This document shows positions 5,400 through 20,745 of a DNA stretch of 36,643 nt, in pieces. The stretch lies in NCBI GenBank assembly GCA_022600935.1, contig JAHZJL010000151.1, positions 1-36,643 on the forward strand, written 5' to 3'. This DNA is from Gammaproteobacteria bacterium (GTDB lineage Bacteria > Pseudomonadota > Gammaproteobacteria > Methylococcales > DRLZ01). A model generated the notes under the pieces. That model ran no database searches. It had not been told where the DNA came from and saw only the letters and a list, made by a program, of their open reading frames with translations. Each line of letters opens with the position of its first letter. The first letter of the stretch is position 1. Both the position numbers and the translations under genes were made by a program.

Positions 5400-6577
5400 A
5401 TGCGTTTTGAATAATTATGGTTATGGAAGAATGCGATTGCATAATATGCCCAGGCCTGTGTCCAGCGTATATAACAGATATTATTGTTATACCAGCGGTT
5501 TATCTGGCAGCGAAAATAACCAGTTTTTTCGATATACATATTTTTTATTGCCCAATCCAGTACCATGGAGGCAAGCTCCAGGTCTGCCTGGGTTTGTCCG
5601 ACTTTCAGCAAAGTCAACACAGCTTGTGAGACAAGATGCATGTCAATCGGATAGGTGGCATTGTGATAATACTTGGGTTGACCGTCTGGTCGAAAAAAAT
5701 GTTGTCGGTAGAACTGTATGCCTATGTCAATGGAGCTATCAAAATCGCACACTCCAAGCGCGTCGCGCGATATCGACAGAGCTTCAAGATTGTAACCTGT
5801 GTGAAAACCATCGATAAATTGATGATGAGTGCGGCCGCCGTAAACCCATGCACCATCTTCGCGTTGTTCACTGACTGATTGCATGCATACCTGGTATGCG
5901 CGATCTGACAGCGTTTGATCCTGAAGTCGCTGTCCAGCTTCTGCGACAACAGCGGCTCCCCACAGGCTTGCATTGTGAACAAATGCTTTCTCACCGGGAA
6001 TGTAGGCAAAATAACATCTGTTGTCTTGTTCGGTGTAGAGCTGATCGATGATAAATTGCCCGGCATTGTTGGCGGCATCAGCAAATCTTGTGGTATCAGG
6101 GTAAATTGATAAGGCCCATAGTGCTCGTGCAACATAACAGGTGGTAATGATATTGGGTTTACCGAGTGGAACATAAAATGCCCGAGCTTGCCAGGGAAAA
6201 TGATAACCCCAGCAAAAGTATTGCCACTGTTCACTGTCACAACGGTTGGCCAATAACCAGTCACCTAATTCAACAGCAGTTTCCAGCGCTGATGAGTCAT
6301 TGTTTCGGCAATAGTCTTCAAGCAGGCCGAGGATAATCAGGGCTATGCCTTTAGCGTTGCGTTGCCTTGGGACCCCGGTCAGTTGTCTGAAATTGACCGG
6401 GGAACGCTTGTACGCTTGAATCCAGGCCAGACGAACCAAGGCAAGCCTGTTTAAGCCTAGACATTCAATCAACGGTGAGTTCAGCCCGTCGAAAATATCA
6501 TAACCGGCAAAATCCACAGCTTGCAGGTTATTCAATAGACGTTGGTTGATTAGCTCTGACGATTGCATGGATGTCAC
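5396..6577 (-). CDS. six-hairpin glycosidase-like (alpha/alpha toroid) protein of polysaccharide cluster
   Basis: This 393-residue soluble protein has no signal peptide. Repeated helical hairpins carry aromatic-rich turns, for example WQYFCWGYHFPWQARAFYVP, HNASLWGAAVVAEAG, DGAWVYGGRTHHQFIDGFH and IRWTQAWAYYAIAFF. The pattern resembles the six-hairpin (alpha/alpha)6 toroid fold of glycoside hydrolases and glycan epimerases. Relatives in exopolysaccharide clusters are often mislabelled 'delta-aminolevulinic acid dehydratase', and nothing here resembles HemB. The start is GTG at 6577 in a GTGA overlap with the upstream gene; an ATG three codons later is an alternative. It also overlaps the WecG-like gene by four bases. 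A role in trimming or modifying the lipid-linked glycan is inferred from context only; I cannot assign catalytic residues. Confidence 0.75.
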   Translation of the reverse strand: MTSMQSSELINQRLLNNLQAVDFAGYDIFDGLNSPLIECLGLNRLALVRLAWIQAYKRSPVNFRQLTGVPRQRNAKGIALIILGLLEDYCRNNDSSALETAVELGDWLLANRCDSEQWQYFCWGYHFPWQARAFYVPLGKPNIITTCYVARALWALSIYPDTTRFADAANNAGQFIIDQLYTEQDNRCYFAYIPGEKAFVHNASLWGAAVVAEAGQRLQDQTLSDRAYQVCMQSVSEQREDGAWVYGGRTHHQFIDGFHTGYNLEALSISRDALGVCDFDSSIDIGIQFYRQHFFRPDGQPKYYHNATYPIDMHLVSQAVLTLLKVGQTQADLELASMVLDWAIKNMYIEKTGYFRCQINRWYNNNICYIRWTQAWAYYAIAFFHNHNYSKRI

Positions 6578-7686
6578 TGACTGTTGACGGGCTGATGCTG
6601 TTGATTGTCGATATCAATACGAGCTTGATAAATTGCCGATATCCTCTCAGCAACTTTAGAACCCATGTAGGTCTTCATGGCAAAGTCATGATTGAAACGG
6701 GACATTGTTTCCATCATTTCCCGGTCACTGATAATGGTTTCAATTTTTTGTGCAATTTCCATAGGTTCCATGGTTTGGCAGAACAGGCCCATTACGCCGT
6801 CCTGAAATTGATCGACTAGTCCTCCGACAGGGCGGGTAATGACAGGCATACCAAACATCATGGCTTCCAGAACCGATGTTGGTAATCCTTCTCCGTAATT
6901 GGTCGGAAAACAATACACATGGTGACTTTCAAAAACCTGTTTTTTTTCATCGCCTTGAACGAATCCCAGAAATTTTACATGATTTTCAGTTAATTGTTTG
7001 CTGGTGACATGGTTTTTAACATTTTCCAGAATCGAACCACTCCCGGCTATTGATAAAGTAACCGGTAATCCTTTGCTGATTAATATCGCAACTGCATCGA
7101 TGGTTTCATAAATACCTTTGTCCTGTTCCAGTCTTGATAAAAAAAGAATTTTGATTTCAGGGCTGGACTGTAAGTCCAGCACTTTATTGTCGATGTTAAA
7201 TGTTTTCGACAATGTCTCGTCAATTGCAGTCGTTTCCAGGTATATGGGTTGCATGATTCCCCATCCGCGCAGTACAGTTTCAAATTCAGAAGCCAGCACG
7301 ATAAAGCTGTCGGCGTGTGCGTAACTGACATTAAAAAAGCTTTTCAGGAAAAGACGTACATAATGTTCAAAATTCTTGTTCCAGCCATGAAAAAAAACGA
7401 TTACCGGTATTTTTTTCAATCTGGCCTGCAGGATGAATAATCCATCTCTGATAAAACTTTTAAACCCCAGAGACGGGTTGATATGTATCAGTTTTGTCGA
7501 ATGATTAATGGATTTGAATAATTTAAACTGGTCTGTGAATAGATTGATAAACCCCAAACCTGACCGGTTCGATCCGATTTCTATGATGTTAATCGGAAAT
7601 TGCAGGTTTAAATGAGGTAAAACAGCGTTATAAAAACTGGCAACTCCTCCGGGTTTATCAAGCTTTGGTACAGTCAGATTAATCAC
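6574..7686 (-). CDS. GT4-type glycosyltransferase
   Basis: This is a retaining GT-B glycosyltransferase of about 370 residues. The N-terminus has the GT4 loop KLDKPGGVASFYNAVLPHL. The C-terminal Glyco_transf_1 domain has ILFLSRLEQDKGIYE, SIAGSGSILENV, VKFLGFV and the E-x7-E motif in NYGEGLPTSVLEAMMFGMPVI. I chose the GTG at 7686, four bases after the stop of the upstream gene, because it begins VINLTVPKLDKPGG, the usual start of the Rossmann fold. An upstream in-frame TTG at 7734 would give 386 residues overlapping the neighbour by 44 bases. Neither start has a clear Shine-Dalgarno sequence. The 3' end overlaps the next gene by GTGA. It probably adds one sugar of the cluster's repeat unit; donor and acceptor are unknown. 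Confidence 0.88.
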   Translation of the reverse strand: MINLTVPKLDKPGGVASFYNAVLPHLNLQFPINIIEIGSNRSGLGFINLFTDQFKLFKSINHSTKLIHINPSLGFKSFIRDGLFILQARLKKIPVIVFFHGWNKNFEHYVRLFLKSFFNVSYAHADSFIVLASEFETVLRGWGIMQPIYLETTAIDETLSKTFNIDNKVLDLQSSPEIKILFLSRLEQDKGIYETIDAVAILISKGLPVTLSIAGSGSILENVKNHVTSKQLTENHVKFLGFVQGDEKKQVFESHHVYCFPTNYGEGLPTSVLEAMMFGMPVITRPVGGLVDQFQDGVMGLFCQTMEPMEIAQKIETIISDREMMETMSRFNHDFAMKTYMGSKVAERISAIYQARIDIDNQQHQPVNSQ

Positions 7687-7690
7687 GGTG

Positions 7691-8779
7691 TCAGGCAGTG
7701 ATCGCTTCAAGATAATCACCAAACTGATCAACAATGGTTTTCCAGGAATAGCGGGATGATATTTGCCTGATGCGTCTGGAATGATAAAGATGCCTGGTAT
7801 TCATGATGCCCCTGAGACCTCGAAAAAAATCATCTGCGGAATCATTGATCAGTACTCCATTGGTGTTGTCGATGACCAGTTTGTTTTCCGAAGTTGCTGT
7901 GGCAATTACCGGCATCCCGGACAATAAATAGTCAAATGTTTTTGTCACAGGCTGGGCATCAAAATAATCAGTCATCGGGACAAATGAAACCCCGATATTG
8001 TGCGTATCAAAATATGTTTTGAGCTCAGTGAAGGGAATTCTGCCTTTGAGCTGGATGATATCAGTCAGTGCATGTTGCTCAATAATTGATTTCAGTGATT
8101 CAATTTCATTACCAGGGCCATCACCTATGATTGTGTAACGCATCGGTATTGAAGTGTGAAACTGTTGATAAAACCGGCAGAAACCCAGCACTGATTTGTG
8201 AATGTCGCGGCCAGACAGTGTCCCGACATAGAGTAAGTCCAGTGAGTTGAAAGATTTGTCGAGACTGGAAATTGTTTCTGAACCTAAAGGCAGGATGGTC
8301 GCTTTTTTTGACAGGTTGAGTTTTCGAGCCAAAGACTCGGAAATAATAGTAATATGCCGAAAAAAAAAGGATTCAAGAATTAGCATGGAATTATACAGGA
8401 AACGATTGATACTGTTTTGGCTGATAGATCCTGTTCGAATATCGAAAATAAAAACCTGTTTTGAGTGAAAAAACTTTAACAACGAGCAACCTCTGAAGTA
8501 TTTAATAAAACATAAACTGGTATGATTATTGTTTAGGTAATCACTGACTGCTTTAATAAACCGGTAATTTCTGGAAATGATATTACCATCACGTGGCACA
8601 TAAATCACCTTAATATTTGATAGTTTCTGTCTTGGCAGCCCATAATCCCAGCAGATAACTGTAATCTCATAGGATTGATTCAGATAAAGACAATAATGAT
8701 ATGTGCCGATATGGCTTCCGAACTGCCTTTGGTCGGCAATCAATAGTTTTTTTTGTGGGTTATAATGAGTATTCTTCAT
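7691..8779 (-). CDS. glycosyltransferase, GT4-like
   Basis: The 362-residue protein is a GT-B-fold glycosyltransferase of GT4/Glycos_transf_1 type. The C-terminal domain shows DLLYVGTLSGRDIHKSVLGF, RYTIIGDGPGNEIESL, IQLKGRIPFTEL and the donor-site loop TKTFDYLLSGMPVIATATSE. That last segment aligns with the family consensus 'KtfEYLaaGkPVIat', here with Asp in place of the usual Glu. The N-terminal domain (LIADQRQFGSHIGTYHYCLYL) is divergent and lacks the classic GG loop. The ATG at 8779 overlaps the stop of the Wzy-like gene (ATGA, 8776-8779), which fixes the start well. Specificity is unknown. It is part of the same coupled transcript as its neighbours. Confidence 0.83.
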   Translation of the reverse strand: MKNTHYNPQKKLLIADQRQFGSHIGTYHYCLYLNQSYEITVICWDYGLPRQKLSNIKVIYVPRDGNIISRNYRFIKAVSDYLNNNHTSLCFIKYFRGCSLLKFFHSKQVFIFDIRTGSISQNSINRFLYNSMLILESFFFRHITIISESLARKLNLSKKATILPLGSETISSLDKSFNSLDLLYVGTLSGRDIHKSVLGFCRFYQQFHTSIPMRYTIIGDGPGNEIESLKSIIEQHALTDIIQLKGRIPFTELKTYFDTHNIGVSFVPMTDYFDAQPVTKTFDYLLSGMPVIATATSENKLVIDNTNGVLINDSADDFFRGLRGIMNTRHLYHSRRIRQISSRYSWKTIVDQFGDYLEAITA

Positions 8780-10152
8780 TCTTCAGAGTTATTGACCAGT
8801 TCGGCGTGAGCAGTGGCAATAAAATATGCAATGATAAAACTGAAAAAATAACTTTCCAGAGTAATTGAGTACGATGACAAAATCACTAAGGTAAATACCA
8901 ATATGGTGTAGGTTCGTTTAATTGAACCGGCTACATTTGGTATATAATCGAGTCGCCTGCCAAGTGTGAAAAAGAAAATAAAAAATGCCAGTAATCCGGA
9001 ATATCCGAATTCGAACAGGGTTTTGGAAAACTGGTTTCTGTCAAGACCTGCAAGCGGTCCGATTTTTTGAAAATACCTGCCGTTTTGACCGATAAATGAC
9101 GCTTCAGAAACTGAACCGGCGCCATAACCTACAATACGGTGAATGGTATCTTCATTGAGGAATTCCCAGGCAGTTGTGATCGCCCTGAACCGGCCCATCC
9201 TCGGGTCTGCTCCGGCTTTTAACTGTACACTGTCCAGAATCGGATAGTGCATATAGTATTCATAGGCAAAATCAGGGTTGAACTGTTTTTCGATATCGTA
9301 TTCTCCAGCCTGCCAGAAAAAGATATAAAACAGGGAAATAAATACAATCCCGATAAACCCTGACGCAGAGATTTGTTTGATTGCAGAAATAAAACTACGG
9401 CGCTTGAATAGCGAATAAAACAGGACAAACAAAACAATGATGGCGACAAATACCGAAGCGGATCGGGATTTGGACAGTAACAAGGGTGCAATCAGAACAA
9501 TGCATGTCAAAAATGTATTGAATTTAGGCAGGGTATTTTTTTTATAGACGAATCTGTCTGTCATCACAATTCCGATTGCAATTACCTGACACACAACCAG
9601 TTCACCGTAACCAGCAAATGTTCCACTGACAGAGTCCAGTGTGTATTTCGATCCACCACCGGCAGCAAAATATTTCAATACACAAACCGGTAATTGAATT
9701 AAAGCCAGAATAACGATGTGTCGATTAAACCTGTCGATGGTCAGGTCTTCTGAATAATACAGATATAGTGCCAGCGTCAAAACGAAACCGACAAAGTAAT
9801 AGCGTAAACTGTAAAAACCAATCAGCAGGCTTTCTTCGTTATATAAGTTTGATATCAGTGTCAGAAAGCAGAAAAACAGTGCTAATAAAAAGACGGGAAC
9901 AAGTGTGCCGTATTGCCTCCTGATGGTCGGATTTTTAACAAGAAAATGCAGACATATCCGTATTCCAAGTAGTCCAACCAGAACCAGCGTCGCACGCTTG
10001 ATAATGGCCGGGGCGGAATAGTATCTGACAAACCAGTCAAACTGCAGCAGAGTCAGGAATATCGACAGTGCTGTAAATATCCTTGGCTTAATCAACAACA
10101 ATAAGATGATAACCAGTCCGATCAGTCCGGCTAATGCATAAACAATAGTCAT
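8776..10152 (-). CDS. O-antigen ligase / Wzy-type polymerase family membrane protein
   Basis: This is a 458-residue polytopic inner-membrane protein with roughly ten or more hydrophobic helices. It starts IVYALAGLIGLVIILLLLIK and ends in a C-terminal group of helices around FFIFFFTLG and ILVFTLVILSSYSITLESY. Between the last helix groups lies a large soluble loop (EYDIEKQFNPDFAYEYYMHYP through the DRNQFSK region), the typical architecture of Wzy_C/O-antigen ligase proteins. Such proteins act at the periplasmic face to polymerise or ligate lipid-linked glycans. Polymerase and ligase cannot be told apart from sequence; a location inside a glycosyltransferase cluster favours polymerase. ATGA overlaps on both sides (10149-10152 and 8776-8779) show tight translational coupling. 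Confidence 0.85.
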   Translation of the reverse strand: MTIVYALAGLIGLVIILLLLIKPRIFTALSIFLTLLQFDWFVRYYSAPAIIKRATLVLVGLLGIRICLHFLVKNPTIRRQYGTLVPVFLLALFFCFLTLISNLYNEESLLIGFYSLRYYFVGFVLTLALYLYYSEDLTIDRFNRHIVILALIQLPVCVLKYFAAGGGSKYTLDSVSGTFAGYGELVVCQVIAIGIVMTDRFVYKKNTLPKFNTFLTCIVLIAPLLLSKSRSASVFVAIIVLFVLFYSLFKRRSFISAIKQISASGFIGIVFISLFYIFFWQAGEYDIEKQFNPDFAYEYYMHYPILDSVQLKAGADPRMGRFRAITTAWEFLNEDTIHRIVGYGAGSVSEASFIGQNGRYFQKIGPLAGLDRNQFSKTLFEFGYSGLLAFFIFFFTLGRRLDYIPNVAGSIKRTYTILVFTLVILSSYSITLESYFFSFIIAYFIATAHAELVNNSEE

Positions 10153-11237
10153 GACTGATCAAAACAGTTGAGAATGGTTTTGAAATTGTTCAGAGAGTGG
10201 TGAGTTGTTGCGTAAGTCTCTGCGTTTGATGCCATTGCATGACGGAGTTGAGCATTCTGTATCAGTGACCTGGTGTCAGATAACAGTTGCTCAAAAGTTT
10301 TCGAGTGATATCCCATGTTGTATCTGGTGATGACTGAATCAGGGTTGGCATTCAAGCTGATGACCGGGGTTTTTCGCATCCAGGCTTGAATAAATGTATT
10401 GCTGAAGCCTTCGTAAAGACTTGTATTCACCAGGATATGGGATTGCTCGAGAATACGATTAACCTCATCATTGGCTAATTCTCCAGGGGCTTTAATAAAA
10501 TGATTGTTGACAGCAGTGTTGATTTGTTCGGCATAGTTGTCGATTCTGCCGATCATGATGCAAGAGATTTCACTGTCTTTATTCAATTCAGCGCCAAGTT
10601 GTATAAAGATTTCCGGTTGCTTGACCGGCTTCATATTGCCGATCCAGACAATTTGAATTGCGGTGGTTGTTTTTTTGACGCCCTCCGGAATGGGATGACC
10701 ATTGGCAACAATATGAGTGACACGGCGCTGAAACAGTGAATGATAGCGATCAGCTTGTTGCTGTGTCTGGGCAATGACAGATTGAGCGTGTTTTTGGCCG
10801 TAGCGTGTCAATCGATATTCAATGATTTTGAACAGGTTGAGGCTGGAGCGATTGTTTAATTCATGTGAGCTGGCCAGATGGAAAATCATCTGTGAATTGC
10901 TGGTTCTGGAATACAACGCTGCGATGGCAGTCAGACTGGAGCCGGCACGCTGGTATATAGCATCGGGCTTGATAGTCTTTAACAATGTCCAGATATGGAA
11001 TCCGTAAAAAAACTTGATATTGCCTAATTTGGCAAATAATTCAATTTTAGGGATCGGATAAAGATGAATATCCAGACTGTTTTGATAAGAGTTGCCATTG
11101 GAAATAAAAATATACGAAACATCCCAACCTGATTGTTTAGCGCATTGGGCAAGATAATACGCTTGTAATTCTGCGCCGCCGCTGCATTGTTCAAAATAAT
11201 TTGCCAGAATAATGGCCAGTTTCTGTTTATTCGCCAT
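10149..11237 (-). CDS. GT4-type glycosyltransferase
   Basis: I place the start at the ATG at 11237, which begins MANKQKLAIILANYFEQCSG, followed by the GT4 donor-loop segment GGAELQAYYLAQCA. This gives 362 residues and an 11-base overlap with the upstream gene. The open frame extends 56 codons further upstream, but that stretch is not family-like and lies over the neighbour. The C-terminal domain has IVWIGNMKPVKQPEIFIQLG, SCIMIGRID and NTSLYEGFSNTFIQAWMRKTPVISL. The second acidic residue of the E-x7-E motif is Gln here (E-x7-Q), which may alter donor handling. It ends in an ATGA overlap with the Wzy-like gene. Substrate unknown. Confidence 0.86.
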   Translation of the reverse strand: MANKQKLAIILANYFEQCSGGAELQAYYLAQCAKQSGWDVSYIFISNGNSYQNSLDIHLYPIPKIELFAKLGNIKFFYGFHIWTLLKTIKPDAIYQRAGSSLTAIAALYSRTSNSQMIFHLASSHELNNRSSLNLFKIIEYRLTRYGQKHAQSVIAQTQQQADRYHSLFQRRVTHIVANGHPIPEGVKKTTTAIQIVWIGNMKPVKQPEIFIQLGAELNKDSEISCIMIGRIDNYAEQINTAVNNHFIKAPGELANDEVNRILEQSHILVNTSLYEGFSNTFIQAWMRKTPVISLNANPDSVITRYNMGYHSKTFEQLLSDTRSLIQNAQLRHAMASNAETYATTHHSLNNFKTILNCFDQS

Positions 11238-12408
11238 TATTGACTGCGTTGTCGATCTGATTGATGATATTTTGCGGAATGTGATAGGACTCGAACAGTA
11301 GCCTGGATTGTTGAGCAAACCGCTGGCGCAAGTTGGTGTCCATTGCAAGGGTTTTAATACGTTCAGATAGTGCTTCAATATCACCTGCTTTAACAACAAA
11401 GCCATTCACATTGTTTTTGACCAGGTTTTTTGCAGCACCAACACGGTCTGTGGTAATGATAGGAATCGACAATGAACTCACTTCATTGAGAATCAGCCCC
11501 CAGCCTTCATACAAATCCCCTTCAGTCGAATGTGGGTGAACGAAAATATCCGCCAAAGCGATATAATCCTGCTTGATGTCCGGGCTGATGGAGCCGGTTA
11601 TAATGACACGATAACCCAGTGCATTACAGAGTTGAAGACATTCCTGTTCGTAAGCCTGATCATCTTCGAAACCCTGAAAATATTCATCCGCTCCACCGCA
11701 TACCAGTAGTACAGCTTGAGGAATATCAGATTCAATACGCTGAAAAGCGGTTAATAAATCTTTCAGACCCTTGCGTCTTGTGATTCGCCCGAAATACAGA
11801 ATGACCACTTTGTTGCGTAAAGACAAATCATCAATCAGGTTGGGGTTGTTGATTTTTATTTTGGCCAGGTCATCTGAGAGAAATGGCAGAATACGGATAT
11901 TATGCGGGTTTACCCCATTGGCGATTGCAAATTCACGTTGATTGTCACCATGCACAAACAAGGTATTGCAGCGTCTCATCATGAGGTAACCGAATGCTTC
12001 ATAGATTCTGTAAATAACAGATTTTTTACTGAGTTTTTGCCACTGCTCGATGACAAGTAAGAGTTTTTTAGCGAGCAATAGACTGGTTAAAAATGCAACT
12101 TTTGAATGCAGTGGTGCCTGGGTTGAAGTCAGTACAGCATCTGAGTGAAATGAATTGCTGATAATGCAATAGCACAGCTTTGCAAATGTGCTGAAAGTAT
12201 AACCGTTGAGCCTGATATTTCTGGCGCCGATCACTGTTGAATTGACCTGTTTCAGAAATTCATGATCGGGTTGGTCGTCATCGCGATGATGGCGAATCCA
12301 GATGACTTTGAGATCAAAGTTACCCTGAGTCGCCAGGCGCAAAAAAAATTCACGGTTGTATTTGCGATACCCCGGCCAGATGATTAATAATTTTTGGCTT
12401 GTCTGCAT
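11227..12408 (-). CDS. GT4-type glycosyltransferase
   Basis: This 393-residue GT-B enzyme begins with a short beta strand and a substrate loop (KLLIIWPGYRKYNREFFLRL). The C-terminal half carries VVILYFGRITRRKGLKDLL, AVLLVCGGADEYF, RVIITGSISPDIKQDYIALA and the complete E-x7-E motif in DLYEGWGLILNEVSSLSIPII, the set expected for GT4. The ATG at 12408 is the first good start; no clear Shine-Dalgarno sequence precedes it. A 36-base gap separates it from the sulfotransferase stop, the only non-overlapping junction among the glycosyltransferase genes. It probably adds one sugar to the repeat unit; donor unknown. Confidence 0.88.
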   Translation of the reverse strand: MQTSQKLLIIWPGYRKYNREFFLRLATQGNFDLKVIWIRHHRDDDQPDHEFLKQVNSTVIGARNIRLNGYTFSTFAKLCYCIISNSFHSDAVLTSTQAPLHSKVAFLTSLLLAKKLLLVIEQWQKLSKKSVIYRIYEAFGYLMMRRCNTLFVHGDNQREFAIANGVNPHNIRILPFLSDDLAKIKINNPNLIDDLSLRNKVVILYFGRITRRKGLKDLLTAFQRIESDIPQAVLLVCGGADEYFQGFEDDQAYEQECLQLCNALGYRVIITGSISPDIKQDYIALADIFVHPHSTEGDLYEGWGLILNEVSSLSIPIITTDRVGAAKNLVKNNVNGFVVKAGDIEALSERIKTLAMDTNLRQRFAQQSRLLFESYHIPQNIINQIDNAVNNGE

Positions 12409-12444: not shown

Positions 12445-13416
12445 TCAGAATAAACGAACATAACGACCGAAAATTTTTCCGGCCAGAAATTTAATTCTGG
12501 ATATCAGTGCAAGAATCATCAGTGTGTGACGAGGGTAGGGTGCGTGAAAATCTGGCTGGGTGATTTCAAGATTGTGCCCGGAAACAGCGGCAAGAATTGC
12601 CTGGATATCCGGATTACCCTGGATTTCATTAACAGTTTGTGAATCCACCAAGTTCTGCTCCTGTTTGTAATAAATGGAGCGGTGAGCATTGTCTGCTGTC
12701 TGTTTGCCTTGCCCGTCGATCACTGAAGAATGCTGGTTGTCTTCAATTGTCAGATCTGAACTGTCTTTATGTAAATGCACTTTTGCCGAATCATTGCCAA
12801 ACAAAGTATGGTGTGTCTTGGTCCAGTAATTTTCCATATCAGGCGAATGATTGACCCCGATGCAATGATTGATAGACGATAATGTTGCAGAAGGATATGT
12901 CACAAGATCGACATAGGAAACAGGCATGAAATCAGTTATCAAAGACAAATAAAGCGTGTGATAGTTCACCCAGGCTTTGATGCATCCGGTTCTGTTTCGT
13001 TTCAACATTGATGCGCAAAAATCGACAGGTGTTTTCCAGATCAGAAGATGATGAACTTCAATTCCCTGATTGCGCAAACGCTGACTTTGTTTGTTAATCC
13101 AGAACGGGTCTTTACTGGAGTCAACGATATAGTCCAGTTGTTCAAACCTGTCGAAGATCGTCTGGTATAACCTGTCTTCCCCTTGCTGCCTGACGTGTAC
13201 CCATAACGAGCAATTCGGGTCCCCGCATCCACACCTGGGATTGAAGTGGTGAGGGCGAAAAGGCCGGAACAAAGCATGCACTTCACCAACTGAAAAGCCT
13301 GAATCAGAATTGGACAGCATCATATCCAGCATGGTCGAGCCGCTATAGGAACTGCCTCCAATAAACAGTATTTTTTTATTTTTCAAAGGGGTCAGACTCG
13401 CTTGATTATTTTTCAA
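12445..13416 (-). CDS. sulfotransferase family protein (PAPS-dependent)
   Basis: The protein of about 323 residues has the two PAPS-binding signatures of sulfotransferases. The 5'-phosphosulfate loop is ILFIGGSSYSGSTMLDMML near the N-terminus, with a downstream GEVHALFRPF and a Cys-rich CGCGDPNCSLW. The 3'-phosphate-binding motif is YIVDSSKDPFWI. Inferred role: sulfating a sugar (or a small molecule) of the neighbouring polysaccharide. The 5' end is odd. No ATG precedes the P-loop; the only candidates are TTG at 13416 or 13386. Both lie inside a tandem 30-bp repeat of the adjacent transposon-like element, and no Shine-Dalgarno is visible. The original start may have been displaced by the insertion, so expression is uncertain. 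The domain itself looks intact. Confidence 0.78.
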   Translation of the reverse strand: MKNNQASLTPLKNKKILFIGGSSYSGSTMLDMMLSNSDSGFSVGEVHALFRPFRPHHFNPRCGCGDPNCSLWVHVRQQGEDRLYQTIFDRFEQLDYIVDSSKDPFWINKQSQRLRNQGIEVHHLLIWKTPVDFCASMLKRNRTGCIKAWVNYHTLYLSLITDFMPVSYVDLVTYPSATLSSINHCIGVNHSPDMENYWTKTHHTLFGNDSAKVHLHKDSSDLTIEDNQHSSVIDGQGKQTADNAHRSIYYKQEQNLVDSQTVNEIQGNPDIQAILAAVSGHNLEITQPDFHAPYPRHTLMILALISRIKFLAGKIFGRYVRLF

Positions 13417-13437
13417 AGGGGTCAGACTCGCTTGATT
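13378..13437. repeat. two perfect tandem copies of a 30-bp repeat
   Basis: Copies at 13378-13407 and 13408-13437 are identical. The core is CAAAGGGGTCAGACTCG. The repeat contains the stop codon of the transposase gene and both possible TTG start codons of the sulfotransferase gene. The 30-bp period is a multiple of three, so the repeat stays in frame. It is closely related to the inverted repeats at 14203-14229 and 14512-14538. Confidence 0.95.
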
Positions 13438-14141
13438 GCTTTTTCTTTAAAATCTTCTGATCGCCGGTCTCCGCCTCTAGCCTTTGGTTCCACTTGCCGT
13501 GCCGACAATGTCTCAATTTTCTCTTTAAACCGATCATTACCAAGCACCCAGGCTTTGTTGGTGGCCTCTCGAATGTCTTCTATATCAGTATGTGACATTT
13601 TACTGTTGAATAACGCTTTGTAGCTATACTGGCGTTCAGCGTCATTACTGCCCAATCTCTTATAAATTGGATGCGGAGTAATTAACACGTTATCTTTACC
13701 CATTGCATTGCAGCGATAACTCGACCAAGGGTATTCACTGGCATGTGAAACCATATTAGCCCGTACTGGGTTTAACTCAATATACCGGCTACAGATCAGC
13801 AGATACTGTTCACTATCAAGTAGCGTAGCTTTATACCGCCCTTCCCATAACGTTCCTGTCCGGTCATATTGGAAATTGAAATATTGAACATAATACCTGC
13901 CTAAGGATTGCATGACCCTGCTGATACTGTTTTCCGAATGTGGAGTCATTAACAAGTGCACATGGTTGGTCATTAAAACATAGGCATGGATCTGACACTG
14001 AAATTTCTGGCAAGCATTGTTCAGTTTTTCCAGATAAAATAGATAATCGTCATCAGCCACAAAAATGACATCGCGATTATTCCCTCGCTGAATCACGTGT
14101 TGGGGTAGGCCGGGAATTGAAAAGCGCGGAAGTCGAGCCAT
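13422..14141 (-). CDS. REP-associated tyrosine transposase (Y1_Tnp/IS200-like)
   Basis: The 239-residue protein belongs to the Y1 HUH transposase superfamily, RAYT branch. It begins MARLPRFSIPGLPQHVIQRG with the following NNRDVIF, the RAYT signature. The HUH motif is in YVLMTNHVHLLMTP (His-Val-His) and the catalytic Tyr is within SRVMQSLGRYYVQYFN. The segments GTLWEGRYKATLLD and YIELNPVRANMV are highly conserved in the family. The basic C-terminal tail ends IKRV, where the last codons and the stop lie in the tandem 30-bp repeat. No frameshift is seen, so the gene may be active. RAYTs nick and mobilise REP-type hairpins as single strands and are often kept as single-copy domesticated genes. 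A 20-bp perfect palindrome lies 37-56 bases upstream of the start. Confidence 0.92.
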   Translation of the reverse strand: MARLPRFSIPGLPQHVIQRGNNRDVIFVADDDYLFYLEKLNNACQKFQCQIHAYVLMTNHVHLLMTPHSENSISRVMQSLGRYYVQYFNFQYDRTGTLWEGRYKATLLDSEQYLLICSRYIELNPVRANMVSHASEYPWSSYRCNAMGKDNVLITPHPIYKRLGSNDAERQYSYKALFNSKMSHTDIEDIREATNKAWVLGNDRFKEKIETLSARQVEPKARGGDRRSEDFKEKAIKRV

Positions 14142-14177
14142 GTTGAAGCGATTATTTCTCTATGTGAAATTTTGATT

Positions 14178-14197
14178 AGATGAAGTATACTTCATCT
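14178..14197. repeat. 20-bp perfect palindrome upstream of transposase
   Basis: AGATGAAGTATACTTCATCT is identical to its reverse complement. It sits in the transposase 5' region, enclosed by an 11-bp inverted repeat (ATGTGAAATTT at 14162-14172 and AAATTTCACAT at 14237-14247). It could be an operator or a cruciform/REP-type substrate; the function is unknown. Confidence 0.9.
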
Positions 14198-14202
14198 TTG
14201 AC

Positions 14203-14229
14203 TTTCAATCGAGTCTGACCCTTTTGGTT
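14203..14229. repeat. 27-bp inverted repeat, left copy (GGGTCAGACTC family)
   Basis: This copy is the exact reverse complement of 14512-14538. It contains CGAGTCTGACCCTTTTGG. It marks the transposase-proximal border of the element opposite the tandem copies at 13378-13437. Confidence 0.95.
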
Positions 14230-14493
14230 TGCTTTTAAATTTCACATCAGTAGTTCTTAGTCTGGTTTGTTCAAACTGGCTTTATCTTACCTTCAAATAA
14301 CAAAAAAAGGTACTGGGTCTTGGTTGTGGCTGAAAACCAAAAACCAATGGAAAACAAATGGGGTCGGACTCCAATACCGCTACCCGAAGCGTGATAAATT
14401 GTTGAAAAACAATAAAATGAGTTAAATATTTAAAGTTAAGCTCCAACTCATAAATGGATATAATTGAGTCTCCAAGAAGTAACCAAAAGCAGT

Positions 14494-14538
14494 AACCAAA
14501 AGGGTCAGATGAACCAAAAGGGTCAGACTCGATTGAAA
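14494..14538. repeat. 27-bp inverted repeat, right copy, with partial tandem duplication
   Basis: The full copy is at 14512-14538. It is preceded by a partial direct copy at 14494-14509 (AACCAAAAGGGTCAGA, 18-base spacing) and by a fragment AACCAAAAG at 14481-14489. A degenerate copy, GGGGTCGGACTCC, lies near 14360-14372. The block at 14142-14589 between the transposase and mxaL contains only these repeats. The 125-codon frame on the reverse strand here is not a credible gene. Confidence 0.9.
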
Positions 14539-14589
14539 TGCCATCAAGTTTGAACCTATTAGCTCCTTTTGCTGTGTTCAGTGGTTGTG

Positions 14590-15480
14590 TCAAATGGTTT
14601 TTGCTTTCAAAGCATAAGGCAACAGCGTCAGTAGCAATGCCAGAATACCCAGTATCCATCGTATATCGGTAGGATGGATTTCCTGTTTGATATAAGGGTC
14701 ACTATTGAGTAAATCGGCGAGTTGTTGCTGGTTTTCCAGTACCAGTATATTCAGTTTGGATAGTTGTGCGTATTCACTGAGATTGGTGATATCCAGTTGC
14801 GACAGGTATTCTTCGTCATTATCAGATCGTCGGTTCAAAGGGTTTCCGGTTTTCACGTCTTTGCTTTTCCAGTAACCGATTATCGCATCATCGTTGTCAT
14901 AAAGAGGAATGCGTACGGGTTGTTTACCGCCAATTCCGACTATCAGGCCGTTGACTTTACCTGATCGTTTTGCCAGTGGTGGAGCATAGTGTTCACTGAC
15001 GGTTTGTTCACCATCAGTCAGGAAAACGATGGTCGGGTCGTTTTCCAGTTGAGCGACTTGTCCCAGCGCCGAATACAGGCCACGCTGGATGTTACTGTCT
15101 CCCGCCCAGGCCATACGCCAGCTGAGTCGGGAAATGACCTGGTCAAGCAGACTGTAGTGTTGGCATAGTTCGATCGGGTTGAACAGTAACAAAGCATCTT
15201 TGGAAGCAAACATGCCGACTCCGACATGAGAGCCACAGGGTAATTGTTTTAATGTTGTTTTGATTGTCGCTTTGGCGGCTTCCAGGCGGCTGATGGATTG
15301 GCCGTTATTGGAAAAATCCCGCGCATTCATGCTTTGTGTGATATCGACAATGAACACGACATTGACCACCTGTTTAGGCAATAATGCAGTGGGTGAAATA
15401 AATGTCGCTGCTGTGATTGATAATGCCAACAGTGGCAATACCAGCTTTCGATAGAGTTGTAATGATTGTATTGCCTGCAT
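14590..15480 (-). CDS. mxaL: MxaL-like VWA-domain membrane protein
   Basis: The 296-residue protein has an N-terminal membrane segment (LVLPLLALSITAATFI), a von Willebrand factor A domain and a C-terminal membrane anchor (WILGILALLLTLLPYALKAK). The metal-ion site reads VVFIVDITQSMNARD (D46, T48, S50), a DxTxS variant of the usual DxSxS, with the later FLTDGEQ. The assignment rests on position: it is the last gene of an mxaR-S-A-C-K-L order. In methylotrophs MxaA, MxaC, MxaK and MxaL are needed for calcium insertion or assembly of the periplasmic methanol dehydrogenase MxaFI. The start is ATG at 15480, five bases after the mxaK stop, with a GGAGG upstream. The alternative label is BatB, but BatB usually carries TPRs in the same chain. 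Confidence 0.75.
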   Translation of the reverse strand: MQAIQSLQLYRKLVLPLLALSITAATFISPTALLPKQVVNVVFIVDITQSMNARDFSNNGQSISRLEAAKATIKTTLKQLPCGSHVGVGMFASKDALLLFNPIELCQHYSLLDQVISRLSWRMAWAGDSNIQRGLYSALGQVAQLENDPTIVFLTDGEQTVSEHYAPPLAKRSGKVNGLIVGIGGKQPVRIPLYDNDDAIIGYWKSKDVKTGNPLNRRSDNDEEYLSQLDITNLSEYAQLSKLNILVLENQQQLADLLNSDPYIKQEIHPTDIRWILGILALLLTLLPYALKAKTI

Positions 15481-15485
15481 TACGG

Positions 15486-16070
15486 TCAGGGACCTCCGGC
15501 AGGTTGTCCAGGTAAGACGGCGTGGACACTGCTTCTGCTTTCTGTCATACCCTGTTTTTCGCGTTCTTTGGGTGGCGGTGTAATACGCAAGGCATAATCC
15601 AGATTATAGCGAGCATTCCAGTGTCCGGGGTTGTGTCTGAGTACGGTCTTGAATGCCTGTTTGGCCTGATTCAATGGCACGATGACTTCACTGTAAGCCC
15701 AGACCCCCATCTCATTCCAGGATGCCGCTGCTAGCTTGAGATTGATCACGCCAATATTGTAAAGAGCTGTTTCCTGAACCTGTTGCCAGTGATTTGAAGA
15801 GAGTTCAGTATCAGACTGGAGTATCGACCGATACATAGCCAGTGCTTGCTGGGTTTTACCTTGCTGATGCAGATGCCAGGCCCGAATCAGTAATTGATCA
15901 GGTTCCAGTTCGGACTGTCCTTCGAACAGATCAGGATTGTTCAAAGCCTGATTGTAGTCGAGCTGATCGCTGAGCCGGACACATTCAAGCACTGTCAGGC
16001 AACTGCACACAACAGCCAGGGCCAGGGCAAAGGTGATTGACCAGCGACGCATATTAGCGGTTGCCTGCAT
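15486..16070 (-). CDS. mxaK: MxaK-like membrane-anchored TPR protein
   Basis: The 194-residue protein has one N-terminal membrane segment (ITFALALAVVCSCLTVL) followed by a periplasmic TPR-like region. Visible repeats are LLIRAWHLHQQGKTQQALAMY and, later, AKQAFKTVLRHNPGHWNARYNLDYALR. The C-terminus is a polar tail. Size, topology and position between two VWA genes match MxaK of methylotrophs, a protein implicated in methanol dehydrogenase maturation whose biochemical role is poorly known. It overlaps mxaC by 17 bases. ATG at 16070 is used; an ATG six codons later (MRRWS) is also possible. The sequence is too divergent for motif-based certainty. Confidence 0.7.
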   Translation of the reverse strand: MQATANMRRWSITFALALAVVCSCLTVLECVRLSDQLDYNQALNNPDLFEGQSELEPDQLLIRAWHLHQQGKTQQALAMYRSILQSDTELSSNHWQQVQETALYNIGVINLKLAAASWNEMGVWAYSEVIVPLNQAKQAFKTVLRHNPGHWNARYNLDYALRITPPPKEREKQGMTESRSSVHAVLPGQPAGGP

Positions 16071-17073
16071 GTTTTAATTGGGTGTTGAATGATGACAGAG
16101 CGCGAGCTTCCATGAAACGTATCGGGATCAGCAAGGTCATCAGTAACATCGCCAGCGTATAAATCCAGCCTGACAATGAATGGCGCGGTGTTTTTTCCTG
16201 ATAGACCAGTGGTTTGTTTTCCAGACGGTCAATTTCAGCAATACTGTCTTTTAACATCTGCGGATTCTCTGCTTCATACGCTTGGTAGGGAACATCCAGG
16301 GACTGGAAAAATTGATGCAGAAACAATTCCGGAGTCCTTGATTGACTTGCTTTGTTCAACGAGTCACTGAGATGTACACCATGATGATTACGCAGATAAA
16401 TCCAGTACAGGCGGGCTTGGCGGTCAATAAACTGCTGTTTAAGGATTTGTTGCGTATCAGTATCCATTTTCGCCGCACCGTCAGACACCAGCATGATAAT
16501 TCGTGACCCGGTGAGTGGTTGATTGGCAAAATAGTCCAGTGCCATCGACAACGCCGGTGCAATATTGGTGGTCCCCTTGCTGCCGGTTTGAGTGCCTGAA
16601 ATTGCGGCTTTGATTGCCTCCCGGCTTTGAGTTAACGGCAATACATAAGCCGGTGATGAGCTGAACGAAACCATGCCTAGAAAGTCATTTTCCCTTGATT
16701 CGATAAATTCCAGCAATAACTGACGGGCAATTGTACTTTTCGACTCGTGAGAGCCTCCACCCATATAGCTGCTTGCAAAGTCCGAGCGCATGCTGGCGCT
16801 ACGGTCAAAAACCAGAACAATTTGCGCACCGGTGCCGACTTTGGTCACAATCTGCTGACCGCTGTACGGCTGGGCGATGCCGATAATCAGAGTCAGAATG
16901 ATAAGGCTGGAGATGATTTTGACCAGCCAGGACAAGCGTTGTGAAAGCGGGTCAGCCGGTAGTAAGTCAATCCAGGAATACAATATTCTGTCAGCACGTT
17001 GCCTCAGCAAAGGAATGACCACAAGCGGCAACAGCAGAAATGCAATGGGTGCTGAAAAATGAATGGAATTCAT
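16054..17073 (-). CDS. mxaC: MxaC-like VWA-domain membrane protein (BatA type)
   Basis: The 339-residue protein starts with a BatA-type N-terminal hydrophobic module (FSAPIAFLLLPLVVIPLLR, then a second membrane segment at LVKIISSLIILTLIIGIA). A VWA domain follows with an intact MIDAS site IVLVFDRSASMRSD (D90, S92, S94) and IIMLVSDGAAKMD. A C-terminal membrane segment (LSGWIYTLAMLLMTLLIPI) closes the chain. The VWA part is predicted to face the periplasm. It overlaps mxaA by ATGA (17070-17073) and mxaK by 17 bases, so the block is one transcript. In methylotrophs MxaC works with MxaA, MxaK and MxaL in methanol dehydrogenase metal insertion. That function is transferred from gene order, not from residues. 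Confidence 0.78.
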   Translation of the reverse strand: MNSIHFSAPIAFLLLPLVVIPLLRQRADRILYSWIDLLPADPLSQRLSWLVKIISSLIILTLIIGIAQPYSGQQIVTKVGTGAQIVLVFDRSASMRSDFASSYMGGGSHESKSTIARQLLLEFIESRENDFLGMVSFSSSPAYVLPLTQSREAIKAAISGTQTGSKGTTNIAPALSMALDYFANQPLTGSRIIMLVSDGAAKMDTDTQQILKQQFIDRQARLYWIYLRNHHGVHLSDSLNKASQSRTPELFLHQFFQSLDVPYQAYEAENPQMLKDSIAEIDRLENKPLVYQEKTPRHSLSGWIYTLAMLLMTLLIPIRFMEARALSSFNTQLKHAGNR

Positions 17074-18032
17074 CGCTGTTTTTCAAGGCGTTCAAAGCGC
17101 TTACAGAGTTGATTCAGGCCGGGCAGGGGGTTCTGTTGAGAACCGTTTTGCATAAATGACCCGGATTCGTAAAACACAGTGCGTGACTGCTGGAAAAACT
17201 GTCTGGTATCTGTTTGTAACGGCTTAAACCGGGGATAGGTGTTGAAAAAATAATCCAGTTGTGATTCTAGAATGGTCTGCCTTGCAGTGTCGTTAAACGC
17301 CTGGTGGACAATACGGTAAGTCTGCTCCAGTTCCGATGTTGTTTGCGGGTGTGCTGGTAGTTGTTTCAACGCTTTCAGAGCATTCTGGAAGGGTCTGTTT
17401 TGGCGTGTCCATAATTGTAAATGCCCTTGCCGCCATAAAAAATACATGACGCTCAATGCAGCGCCTATGGCGTATATCAAAAGTTTCCTGAGTGTCGGCT
17501 GTGTGGACAGTGACTCGAGAGGCTGAGGAGGTTGTGCAACAATTTCCGAGTCCCTCGTGGATGTTGGGATGACTGTCGAGTAGGCAAATTTCCAGGCCGG
17601 GACACTGGCGGTATCATCATTTGAACCGGATTGAAGATTAATCCGGAACGATGGAATTTCCAGCCATTCACTGGTTTTCACTGACTTGGCAACCTGGTAG
17701 GCAATGAGTAATTGCTTTTCAGTACTCGACAAGTCCTGAACATTCACACGAACAATGTCCAGCCAGTCTGACAACGGGCCTGGTCCGGGAATTTGAGTGG
17801 TGTCCAGGTCGGCACCAAACGGATGCTGGATATGGATACGGTGGGCAATGATATCACCGGCATGGTATCCGAATGGTCTGGGTGTAAGTAAGGTCAGTTT
17901 GAGTTGTTGATTTGCGGAAGAACTGACCAGTGTTTGTTCGCTGGCATGTGCCATTGTCAAAGCCAGAGTCAAGATCAGACCGATCAGGGTCTTTCTCAAA
18001 CACGGGTGACATGGTATGAGCTTGTGGTTCAT
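17070..18032 (-). CDS. mxaA: MxaA-like membrane protein
   Basis: The start is placed at ATG 18032 (MNHKLIPCHPCLRKTLIG), which overlaps the mxaS stop as ATGA. It gives a clear signal peptide (LIGLILTLALTMAHA) and 320 residues. The open frame continues 29 codons upstream into mxaS but that extension looks spurious. After the signal comes a beta-rich periplasmic domain (about residues 30-165), one membrane segment (LLIYAIGAALSVMYFLW, about 180-197) and a cytoplasmic helical tail of about 120 residues resembling the DUF4381-type region. This layout fits MxaA, implicated in calcium insertion into methanol dehydrogenase. A DUF4381 relative of a generic MoxR-VWA system is the alternative. Confidence 0.7.
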   Translation of the reverse strand: MNHKLIPCHPCLRKTLIGLILTLALTMAHASEQTLVSSSANQQLKLTLLTPRPFGYHAGDIIAHRIHIQHPFGADLDTTQIPGPGPLSDWLDIVRVNVQDLSSTEKQLLIAYQVAKSVKTSEWLEIPSFRINLQSGSNDDTASVPAWKFAYSTVIPTSTRDSEIVAQPPQPLESLSTQPTLRKLLIYAIGAALSVMYFLWRQGHLQLWTRQNRPFQNALKALKQLPAHPQTTSELEQTYRIVHQAFNDTARQTILESQLDYFFNTYPRFKPLQTDTRQFFQQSRTVFYESGSFMQNGSQQNPLPGLNQLCKRFERLEKQR

Positions 18033-18880
18033 GAATAAAAATAATCTGTCATGGCATCGGCATCGAAACCTTGCTCGATGAAAAATGGCTGACGTCCGAA
18101 TTGATTGCAGATGTGGCAAATGGTTTTTTTATGTTCGCTAAATACCCTGGACAGTTTTTGACGCAAGGCTTGTCGCATCAGTAAAGAGCGTACTTGTCCT
18201 GTTTCGGCATCCTGCAGGGTAAAATAGCTTCCATTGCTGACCGGTAGTTGTTCAAAATCGTCCCATATGACGACGGGTACGACATCATGGTTCACCAGAT
18301 TTTCCAGAATTGCGGTTAATTGTTGTGGTTTGAAATGAAAATCCGAGACCAGAAACACCAGAGACGGTCGTGAGCCCAGATACGCATTGATATCCAGTAA
18401 TGCTTCAGCGGTGCCTTGTAATGATGCTTGTGCCAATTCTTGCAGCTGATCATAAGGTGGGGTTTTGTACCACTTCAACGGAATGTGATAGTCCCAGTGG
18501 ATTGTATCGCTACAGGCATGCAGAGCAAACAGGTCTCCGCTGCGGGCTGCGGACCACGCGGCTGATTGGATAAACTCAATCATGGTTCTTGATTTGCTGT
18601 GTTTGGACTTGAATGCCATTGACGCTGACAGATCAGCGATGACCTGAACCGGTATCCTGCCGCGTTGTTTAAAACTGCGAACCAGGAAGTCTCCAAAGGG
18701 GTTTTGGGCGCTGGCATGTATATCCAGATGGCGTGGATTGGGGTTGTCGATCAGGGTTTGATGACGCTGGAATTCATAGCCTTCGCCAGAAAAGCTTCCC
18801 GCATGCGCACCAGGGTAGGGGCTGGAAGCATGCCAGGCGATGCGATAATGGAATTCCCGGATTGAGGTATTGTCAATCAT
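18029..18880 (-). CDS. mxaS: MxaS-like DUF58 protein
   Basis: The 283-residue soluble protein has the DUF58 layout. An N-terminal segment (PGAHAGSFSGEGYEFQRHQ) aligns with the 'G.H.S...G.G.EF...R.Y' region of the family. A VWA-like domain follows, with VQVIADLSASMAF (DxSxS: D83, S85, S87). The usual DUF58 partner is a MoxR ATPase, encoded immediately upstream with 11 bases between them. It overlaps mxaA by four bases. MxaS is part of the methanol-oxidation cluster of methylotrophs, where its role is unproven. I see no membrane segment, so a cytoplasmic location is inferred. Confidence 0.8.
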   Translation of the reverse strand: MIDNTSIREFHYRIAWHASSPYPGAHAGSFSGEGYEFQRHQTLIDNPNPRHLDIHASAQNPFGDFLVRSFKQRGRIPVQVIADLSASMAFKSKHSKSRTMIEFIQSAAWSAARSGDLFALHACSDTIHWDYHIPLKWYKTPPYDQLQELAQASLQGTAEALLDINAYLGSRPSLVFLVSDFHFKPQQLTAILENLVNHDVVPVVIWDDFEQLPVSNGSYFTLQDAETGQVRSLLMRQALRQKLSRVFSEHKKTICHICNQFGRQPFFIEQGFDADAMTDYFYS

Positions 18881-18891
18881 CTGTCAGGTGT

Positions 18892-19923
18892 TTAAGGTGC
18901 AGCGATTGTTTTGAGGATGGTGCTGGTGAGTTGATCGATGATATCAGCGCGTCTGAGCTCATAAGCCGGGGTGAAAAAGATGCGATGTCCGGCAACCGGT
19001 TGAAACACGGTTTGTATGTCTTCCGGAAGCACTGCGTTGCGATCATCCAGCCAGCTGGCTACACGAGCAGCTTGAATCAGCAGGCTCATGGCACGGGGAC
19101 TCAAGCCCGCCAGAATCAATCGTGACATATCCACGCCTTCAATGGAAACACCGTAGTCTGCCGGCTTGCGGGTTGCCTCCCAGAGCTGCAAGACGTAATC
19201 CTGTATGGTATCGCTGACATGGACAGTCTGTTGAATACTGGCGGCAACGCTGTTCAGGGAATGAAAAGGCAGTATGCCATGCTGAACCTGTGCGACCAGA
19301 TCATCGACTTGATGGAATCTTGAGTCGAATACCAGTTCTTTTCTGGCATTTTTGTCAACCGGAATTTCAATTTTCAACTCCATTAAAAACCGGTCACGAG
19401 CGGCTGACGGTATTTCGAAGGTTTCCTCTTTTTCGACCCGGTTTCGATCAGCAAAGACTTGTAAATGAGGAAAATGATAATCACGATTAAATGCACTGAC
19501 TCTTCGCTCTGCCATGACTCTCAATAACAGTGAGTGAACCTGGGGACGTGCACGATTGACTTCATTGAAAAAGAATGTCGCAAGCTGTTCATTATGTTTG
19601 AGTAAAGGACCGGGGTCGACTTTGGGCTTTCCCTGTTCATCAATAAATGAATGATATAACAAGTCATTCGGCATTAAATCGATGGTTCCCTCGATGCGTT
19701 CATATTCACCACCAAGGGCCGTGGTAACTGCACGTAACAGCGTTGTTTTGCCAACCCCGACATCGCCTTCCAGCATGACGTGTCCGCGTGAAAATATACA
19801 GATGGTAAACAAGCGGATAGCGTCATCCAGTCCGATGACAGCTTTGCTGATTTCCTGTTGAAACAAATGGGCATTATGACGCCAGTGAGAAAGGTCGATG
19901 GTTGCTGGGAAAACAGATGACAT
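18892..19923 (-). CDS. mxaR: MxaR/MoxR-family AAA+ ATPase
   Basis: The 343-residue AAA+ protein has a Walker A, GDVGVGKTTLL (residues 54-64), and the MoxR-type lid region with an NRARPQVHSLLLRVMAER insertion. Two catalytic segments are unusual. The Walker B reads FFFNEVNRARP (N120, E121) where MoxR proteins usually have L.aDEiNRap. The sensor region reads VFADRNRVEKEETFEIPSAARDRF where most have ATQNPiEqeGTypLPEAQlDRF. MoxR ATPases act as chaperones with VWA proteins in metal or cofactor insertion. It is the first gene of the - strand block, divergent from the FKBP gene. A possible -10 box TATAAC lies about 20 bases before the ATG (19943-19948 on the complement), without a good -35. Confidence 0.85.
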   Translation of the reverse strand: MSSVFPATIDLSHWRHNAHLFQQEISKAVIGLDDAIRLFTICIFSRGHVMLEGDVGVGKTTLLRAVTTALGGEYERIEGTIDLMPNDLLYHSFIDEQGKPKVDPGPLLKHNEQLATFFFNEVNRARPQVHSLLLRVMAERRVSAFNRDYHFPHLQVFADRNRVEKEETFEIPSAARDRFLMELKIEIPVDKNARKELVFDSRFHQVDDLVAQVQHGILPFHSLNSVAASIQQTVHVSDTIQDYVLQLWEATRKPADYGVSIEGVDMSRLILAGLSPRAMSLLIQAARVASWLDDRNAVLPEDIQTVFQPVAGHRIFFTPAYELRRADIIDQLTSTILKTIAAP

Positions 19924-20064: not shown

Positions 20065-20745
20065 ATGAAACAATCGAGTATTTTTTTTCTGGTCGTATCA
20101 ACGGCTATCAGCCAGATTGTGCTGGCTGCGGATTTGAAGCTTGAAACAGACCAGGACAAACTCAGCTACAGCCTCGGTATGATGATCGGCGAACGGGTTG
20201 CCAAACCATACAAAGACATTAATTACGCAATTCTTCTGGAAGGTATCAAGGATCAACATCAAGGCAAGGAAACAGCATTGCCACTAAAAGATGCCAATAT
20301 GATCCTGAGTGATTATCACACAAAAAAAATCAATGCTGAATCATCCAAGGCTAAAGCTGCGGGACAACAATACATGGCTGAAAATGCCAATCGAGACGGT
20401 GTGACAGTTACTGATTCAGGCTTGCAATATGAAGTGTTGAAAACAGGTGATGGCGCTAAACCAAAGGCTACTGATACAGTAACTGTCCACTATGTCGGTA
20501 CATTACTTGACGGTACTGAATTCGACAGTTCGGTGAAACGCGGGCAACCGGCAACCTTCCCGCTCAACCGGGTTATCCCGGGCTGGACTGAAGGTGTTCA
20601 ATTGATGAATACAGGAAGTAAATACCGATTTGTGATACCGTCTGAACTGGGTTATGGAAACCAGGGCGCTGGCGCTAAAATTGGTCCTGGAGAAACCTTG
20701 GTTTTTGAAGTGGAATTATTGAGTATTGACGACACAAAAAAATGA
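20065..20745 (+). CDS. periplasmic FKBP-type peptidyl-prolyl cis-trans isomerase (FkpA/Mip-like)
   Basis: The 226-residue protein has a signal peptide (MKQSSIFFLVVSTAISQIVL, cleavage near residues 21-22). A helical N-terminal dimerisation domain follows (KLSYSLGMMIGERVAKPY, as in FkpA, Mip and FklB), with a long linker helix. The C-terminal FKBP domain (about residues 115-220) contains VTVHYVGTLLDGTEFDSS, FPLNRVIPGWTEGVQLM and YRFVIPSELGYG, the usual active-site segments. It catalyses prolyl isomerisation and acts as a folding chaperone, here predicted periplasmic because there is no lipobox. AAGGA lies upstream of the ATG. It is transcribed alone and ends at a strong terminator. A link to maturation of periplasmic proteins served by the divergent mxa block is speculation. 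Confidence 0.92.
   Translation: MKQSSIFFLVVSTAISQIVLAADLKLETDQDKLSYSLGMMIGERVAKPYKDINYAILLEGIKDQHQGKETALPLKDANMILSDYHTKKINAESSKAKAAGQQYMAENANRDGVTVTDSGLQYEVLKTGDGAKPKATDTVTVHYVGTLLDGTEFDSSVKRGQPATFPLNRVIPGWTEGVQLMNTGSKYRFVIPSELGYGNQGAGAKIGPGETLVFEVELLSIDDTKK

Follow-up and report, generated by a model that had tools for sequence, protein, structure and literature searches.

A standalone mxaRSACKL module in a Methylococcales genome and XoxF as its most likely client

The stretch of positions 1–36,643 of contig JAHZJL010000151.1 (36,643 nucleotides, hereafter the window) comes from a gammaproteobacterial metagenome-assembled genome (MAG) of the order Methylococcales (GCA_022600935.1, lineage DRLZ01) and carries on its minus strand, at positions 14590–19923, six intact, coupled open reading frames (ORFs) in the order R-S-A-C-K-L of the mxa genes. 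On balance we favour the account that this is a genuine mxaRSACKL module of a clade standing apart from mxaFJGI, vertically inherited in its own chromosomal place, and that its client is most likely the dehydrogenase XoxF. The first-pass annotation, made from the sequence of the window, had read the six genes as mxaRSACKL, considered a generic Bat system less likely, left several clients in play (a distant MxaFI, XoxF, another enzyme) and suggested a genome search for dehydrogenase and pyrroloquinoline quinone (PQQ) genes, profile searches with the small proteins and a tree.

Mxa profiles were built solely from mxaFJGI-linked modules of related genomes, and the window contributed nothing to them. 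They match all six window proteins (E 8e-22 to 4e-164). A separate canonical Bat operon on contig C176 of the same genome (MoxR, DUF58, DUF4381, BatA, BatB-TPR fusion and BatD) served as an internal control. The MxaR profile gave 535 bits for the window protein versus 192 for the genome's own Bat MoxR, and the respective values were 293 versus 39 (DUF58) for MxaS, 355 versus 39 (BatA) for MxaC, 67 versus 11 (BatB) for MxaK and 222 versus 22 (BatA) for MxaL; with the MxaA profile the window protein scored 186 bits, while the Bat proteins were at the noise level. A generic Bat (aerotolerance) operon, which the common domain types (MoxR, DUF58, BatA-like VWA and TPR) might bring to mind, is extremely improbable here, as the Bat operon of this genome sits elsewhere, the Mxa profile scores of the module are far above those of the Bat proteins, and profile comparisons of MxaA with BatD and DUF4381 revealed no similarity. 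Bat operons have MoxR, DUF58 and BatA-type VWA proteins in common with the window module, whereas DUF4381, a fused VWA-TPR BatB and BatD are theirs and are all missing from it; Bat identity was therefore rejected. Because of the profiles, the internal Bat control and the tree described below, the module is Mxa and not Bat, and its identity as a genuine mxaRSACKL module is confirmed at the sequence level, in agreement with the first-pass annotation.

All six ORFs have the expected domains (Table 1), and the spacing between them ranges from -17 to +11 bp: R and S are separated by 11 bp, S and A as well as A and C overlap by 4 bp, C and K overlap by 17 bp, and K and L are separated by 5 bp. For mxaA, the more probable start is the ATG at 18032, which overlaps the mxaS stop codon, and not the mechanically listed TTG at 18119. 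Searches of curated Pfam and NCBIfam models yielded none specific for MxaA, MxaK or MxaL, and no fitting NCBIfam equivalog was found. MxaR retains Walker A (GDVGVGKT) and the sensor Asn, and its Walker B reads FFFNE. The replacement of the Walker B Asp by Asn, unusual for a MoxR ATPase, is seen in at least 90% of MxaR proteins of both clades considered below. MIDAS motifs are present in MxaS (DLSAS), MxaC (DRSAS) and MxaL (DITQS, the DxTxS form), the last protein having in addition a family-invariant Cys pair at alignment positions 66 and 90. Hydropathy analysis gave no membrane spans for MxaR and MxaS, three for MxaC, one for MxaK and two, N- and C-terminal, for MxaL. MxaA is predicted to have a signal peptide, a periplasmic beta-sandwich, one transmembrane helix and a C-terminal helical domain, and its alignment invariants are G14, P37, H198, A200 and S238. 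In the AlphaFold model of this protein (pLDDT 92, pTM 0.49), a beta sandwich is followed by one long helix and then a helical domain; comparison of the fold with PDB yielded weak Ig-like matches only (best E 0.009) and no functional lead.

Table 1. The mxaRSACKL module and the genes on either side of it (window coordinates)
Feature	Position	Strand	Evidence or location
mxaR-like MoxR AAA+ ATPase, 343 aa	18892..19923	-	Pfam AAA_3 1.5e-24, AAA_lid_2
mxaS-like DUF58/VWA protein, 283 aa	18029..18880	-	Pfam DUF58 2.7e-15
mxaA-like protein, 320 aa from ATG 18032	17070..18032	-	no Pfam match; Mxa profile 186 bits
mxaC-like BatA-type VWA protein, 339 aa	16054..17073	-	Pfam VWA_2 8.5e-18
mxaK-like membrane-anchored TPR protein, 194 aa	15486..16070	-	sub-threshold TPR
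mxaL-like VWA protein, 296 aa	14590..15480	-	Pfam VWA_2 1.6e-11
FKBP-type peptidyl-prolyl isomerase (PPIase)	20065-20745	+	upstream of module
Y1_Tnp/RAYT-like gene	13422-14141		downstream of module

The distribution of such modules was analyzed in 61 Methylococcales genomes, among which G001 is the only congener of the host. An MxaA homolog was found in 39 of the 61 genomes (the same 39 with a 38-row profile), in two copies in 19 of them. All MxaI-positive genomes also have an MxaA homolog, and MxaI was not detected in eight MxaA-positive genomes: the host (G000), G001, G002, G017, G029, G032, G037 and G051. In concatenated trees of 58 modules, the 31 mxaFJGI-linked and the 27 standalone ones form sister clades with support 100, and the window module is one of the 27. 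In approximately unbiased (AU) tests, holding the window module and its sister together with all mxaFI-linked modules was not rejected (p 0.44), a split that corresponds simply to this pair branching first among the standalone modules; grouping the pair with any one of three mxaFI-linked families was rejected (p 3e-37, 6e-55 and 1e-45) in tests that were chosen after the first result was known. As fetched, the loci with mxaFJGI in this order have their own linked RSACKL, and in 19 genomes the standalone clade coexists with a full mxaFJGIRSACKL copy.

The complete mxaFJGIRSACKLD layout, with mxaFJGI adjacent upstream and mxaD downstream, is not found at the locus: no mxaF, mxaJ, mxaG, mxaI or mxaD was found in the window, and, as noted at first pass, an FKBP gene and a RAYT gene occupy the respective places. 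The first-pass annotation had allowed that mxaFJGI might lie just outside the window; because the orthologous modules of related genomes also stand alone, mxaFJGI is not to be placed beside it. Single neighbors of the window module (aat, a FemAB-like gene, asd and fimV) are found again close to the modules in G057 and G024, and this recurrence suggests that the module has been inherited vertically in place. The best reading of the locus is an ordinary, vertically inherited member of the order's standard second mxaRSACKL set.

Elsewhere in the standalone clade the surroundings are housekeeping genes in most genomes, and no informative conserved functional neighbors were found: in family f5 and Methylotuvimicrobium buryatense they are maf, rng, yhdP, a nitrilase gene and an rlmH-like gene (named by eye), and other modules lie next to groEL/ES. 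The standalone module seems to be split in genomes of the Methylotuvimicrobium/Methylomicrobium type, where R-S-A-C and a K-L pair occupy different loci (L065 for R-S-A-C; split loci L065, L154, L155, L159, L170 and L195). Six further loci (L074, L079, L086, L089, L039 and L051) have a standalone A-C-K-L without a nearby R, or without R and S; such modules may use R and S shared from elsewhere in the genome.

The host MAG (3.89 Mb in 305 contigs, 85% complete) was searched for PQQ dehydrogenases with PF13360 and PF01011. Beyond one hit read as BamB-like, the PQQ alcohol dehydrogenases found are XoxF only. The first XoxF (609 aa, contig C66) has the lanthanide motif WDYDG and is followed by a XoxJ-like gene; the second is represented by a partial gene on C155 and an end fragment on C77, which overlap and differ slightly in sequence, so that they could represent either two copies or a single gene that varies between strains. 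WDYDG is present in the host XoxF sequences wherever it is readable. Contig C44 ends in a partial pqqC. MxaI (PF02315) was found neither in the 85%-complete host nor in its sister G001 (91% complete), while the same search detected it in 31 of the 61 genomes. Among the clients considered at first pass, XoxF therefore fits best, with two xoxF genes and no MxaI in the host; a distant MxaFI is retained as a rival.

This rival holds that MxaFI is encoded in the unassembled approximately 15% of the genome and is served in trans. The fragmentation and incompleteness of the MAG leave room for it, and MxaACKL are the accepted proteins of calcium insertion into MxaFI (PMC6028718). We nevertheless find it quite unlikely, given that MxaI is also missing from G001 and from six more module-bearing relatives that are 87–99% complete, and that the mxaFJGI loci of the order bring their own RSACKL. 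Less probable still is a relict, left functionless after the loss of MxaFI. The absence of MxaFI from the detected genes of the host and the patchy presence of the module among XoxF-only relatives would agree with such decay, but none of the six frames is disrupted, the family motifs are preserved, the congener has retained the module too, and a clade that coexists with mxaFI in 19 genomes is not a mere remnant of mxaFI loss.

XoxF was identified as the most likely client from co-occurrence and adjacency. A XoxF with at least 69% identity to that of the host is encoded in 27 of the 27 genomes with a standalone module, and in eight of these MxaI was not detected. In a sample of 399 Pseudomonadota genomes, MxaL was found in 13, and all 13 belong to the 42 in which XoxF/MxaF was matched (Fisher p 3e-14, uncorrected for relatedness). 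Of the other 12 MxaL genomes, ten also have MxaI, and the remaining two (G306 and G309) have MxaL and XoxF without MxaI. In G010 (L142) a module without mxaFI neighbors adjoins xoxFJ on the same strand at a distance of about 0.5 kb. The same genome (L067/L142) has an approximately 25 kb methanol-oxidation island that runs from mxaFJGIRSACKL through the standalone RSACKL, whose S and A are separated by an insertion of about 3.4 kb, to xoxFJ. Outside the clade of the window, the module is divergent from xoxFJ at about 0.7 kb in three related gammaproteobacterial MAGs (L190, L214 and L222) and lies on the same strand as xoxFJ at about 0.6 kb in Methyloversatilis (L213); in the wide tree these four and the modules of G306 and G309 form one group with support 0.975.

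Several observations weigh against XoxF as the client. Within the window's own clade, xoxF adjacency was seen in G010 alone, and the absence of mxaFI from the host is based on an incomplete (85%) assembly together with the sister genome. XoxF is present and an MxaA homolog undetected in seven relatives, some of them with fragmented genomes (G004, G007, G009, G015, G033, G045 and G056), and in the phylum sample MxaL is missing from 29 of the 42 genomes with XoxF/MxaF; since some XoxF-bearing genomes lack the module, XoxF does not generally need it. A 2024 review holds that XoxF needs neither mxaACKLD nor mxaRSEH (PMC11845868), and the mxa cluster of Methylobacterium extorquens drops 8–256-fold with lanthanum (PMC6414531). 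We found no experiments in the literature that tie any mxaRSACKL protein to XoxF, and the main texts of the Methylotuvimicrobium buryatense and M. alcaliphilum papers do not mention expression of the second cluster with versus without lanthanum.

The client might instead be no methanol dehydrogenase (MDH) at all and be, for example, another periplasmic metalloenzyme for which the machine was co-opted from MDH long ago. The deep separate clade, the lack of a conserved functional neighbor in most genomes and the retention of the standalone module beside a full mxaFJGIRSACKL copy are all consistent with this idea. We consider it unlikely, as the module was never found without XoxF/MxaF in the genomes sampled, xoxF adjacency occurs in more than one lineage, and XoxF is the only type of PQQ alcohol dehydrogenase found in the host. 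Returning to XoxF, a stronger version of the proposal is possible but doubtful, namely that the standalone clade is a dedicated, XoxF-specific AAA+/VWA machine for lanthanide loading, whose function separated from that of the mxaFI-linked, calcium-loading machine earlier than the divergence of the Methylococcales families. If true, it would contradict the view that XoxF does without mxa accessory proteins.

The protein features suggest a transmembrane machine with a cytosolic ATPase/VWA part, a bridging MxaA and periplasmic VWA/TPR proteins, the topology being predicted from hydropathy, a positive-inside reading and the MxaA model. Cytosolic MxaR, as an AAA+ hexamer, and MxaS (VWA/DUF58) would act on the membrane assembly, and MxaA, with its periplasmic beta domain, single helix and cytosolic helical domain, would relay the signal across the membrane. 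In the periplasm, the VWA proteins MxaC and MxaL together with the TPR protein MxaK would hold and remodel the apo-dehydrogenase, letting metal and PQQ enter. MxaACKL are credited with calcium insertion into MxaFI (PMC6028718), and we infer that this metal-insertion role may extend to XoxF. Force-driven insertion is conceivable by analogy with NorQ/NorD, a MoxR ATPase and a VWA protein that can drive metal insertion (PMC13036017, PMC9976466). Both systems combine a MoxR AAA+ protein with a VWA protein, in NorQ/NorD for maturation of a metal site, where the MIDAS motif of NorD is needed. However, NorQ/NorD comprise two proteins and have a membrane oxidoreductase as their target, whereas the window module has six, several of them membrane-anchored, and its MxaR has Asn for Asp in Walker B.

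Orphan mxa clusters have been in the literature since 2004, and the window module adds one more. The mxaFJGIRSACKLD cluster of Methylobacterium extorquens and Methylococcus capsulatus comprises these six families in an identical order, but the window module lacks adjacent mxaFJGI and mxaD and belongs to the separate sister clade. Methylococcus capsulatus Bath has a third cluster, mxaACKL (MCA1527-1530; Ward et al. 2004, PMC517821), which likewise is a second MDH-synthesis cluster apart from mxaFJGI. The Texas strain (G016, L071) has a standalone module within the clade of the window, which we infer to be the ortholog of MCA1527-1530. Two differences are that Ward et al. list only ACKL and that M. 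capsulatus also has mxaFJGI, while no MxaI was found in the genome of the window. In Methylophilaceae, extra mxaRSACKL clusters are known, two in each of two mxaFJGI-less strains (Beck et al. 2014), Methylotenera mobilis JLW8 and M. versatilis 301, and mxaD is confined to the mxaFJGI-linked copy (PMC4109929). These are also standalone RSACKL clusters of XoxF-only methylotrophs, but the second modules sampled branch outside the Methylococcales standalone clade. A 2026 study of Sphaerotilus reported mxa accessory genes alongside XoxF5 and no MxaFI (PMC13300288).

The window by itself is an ordinary member of the standalone set; it is the clade split and the xoxF adjacencies that sharpen the client question for standalone modules. 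We know of no orphan module to which a client has been assigned in the literature. The order-wide second clade in genomes where only XoxF was found makes XoxF loading testable in cultured strains (Methylococcus capsulatus, Methylotuvimicrobium buryatense).

In the region 13380–14540, downstream of the module, GGGTCAGACTCG occurs in four identical copies around the Y1_Tnp/RAYT-like gene, of which three are forward and one is inverted; 0.13 copies are expected from shuffles with at most one mismatch allowed. The copies are REP-like elements, and the gene is their likely transposase. Positions 4638–12408 hold an exopolysaccharide-type cluster with WecG-family and group 1 glycosyltransferases and a weak Wzy-like match, and positions 30499–31542 encode a di-haem cytochrome c peroxidase/MauG-family protein (CCP_MauG 4e-62).

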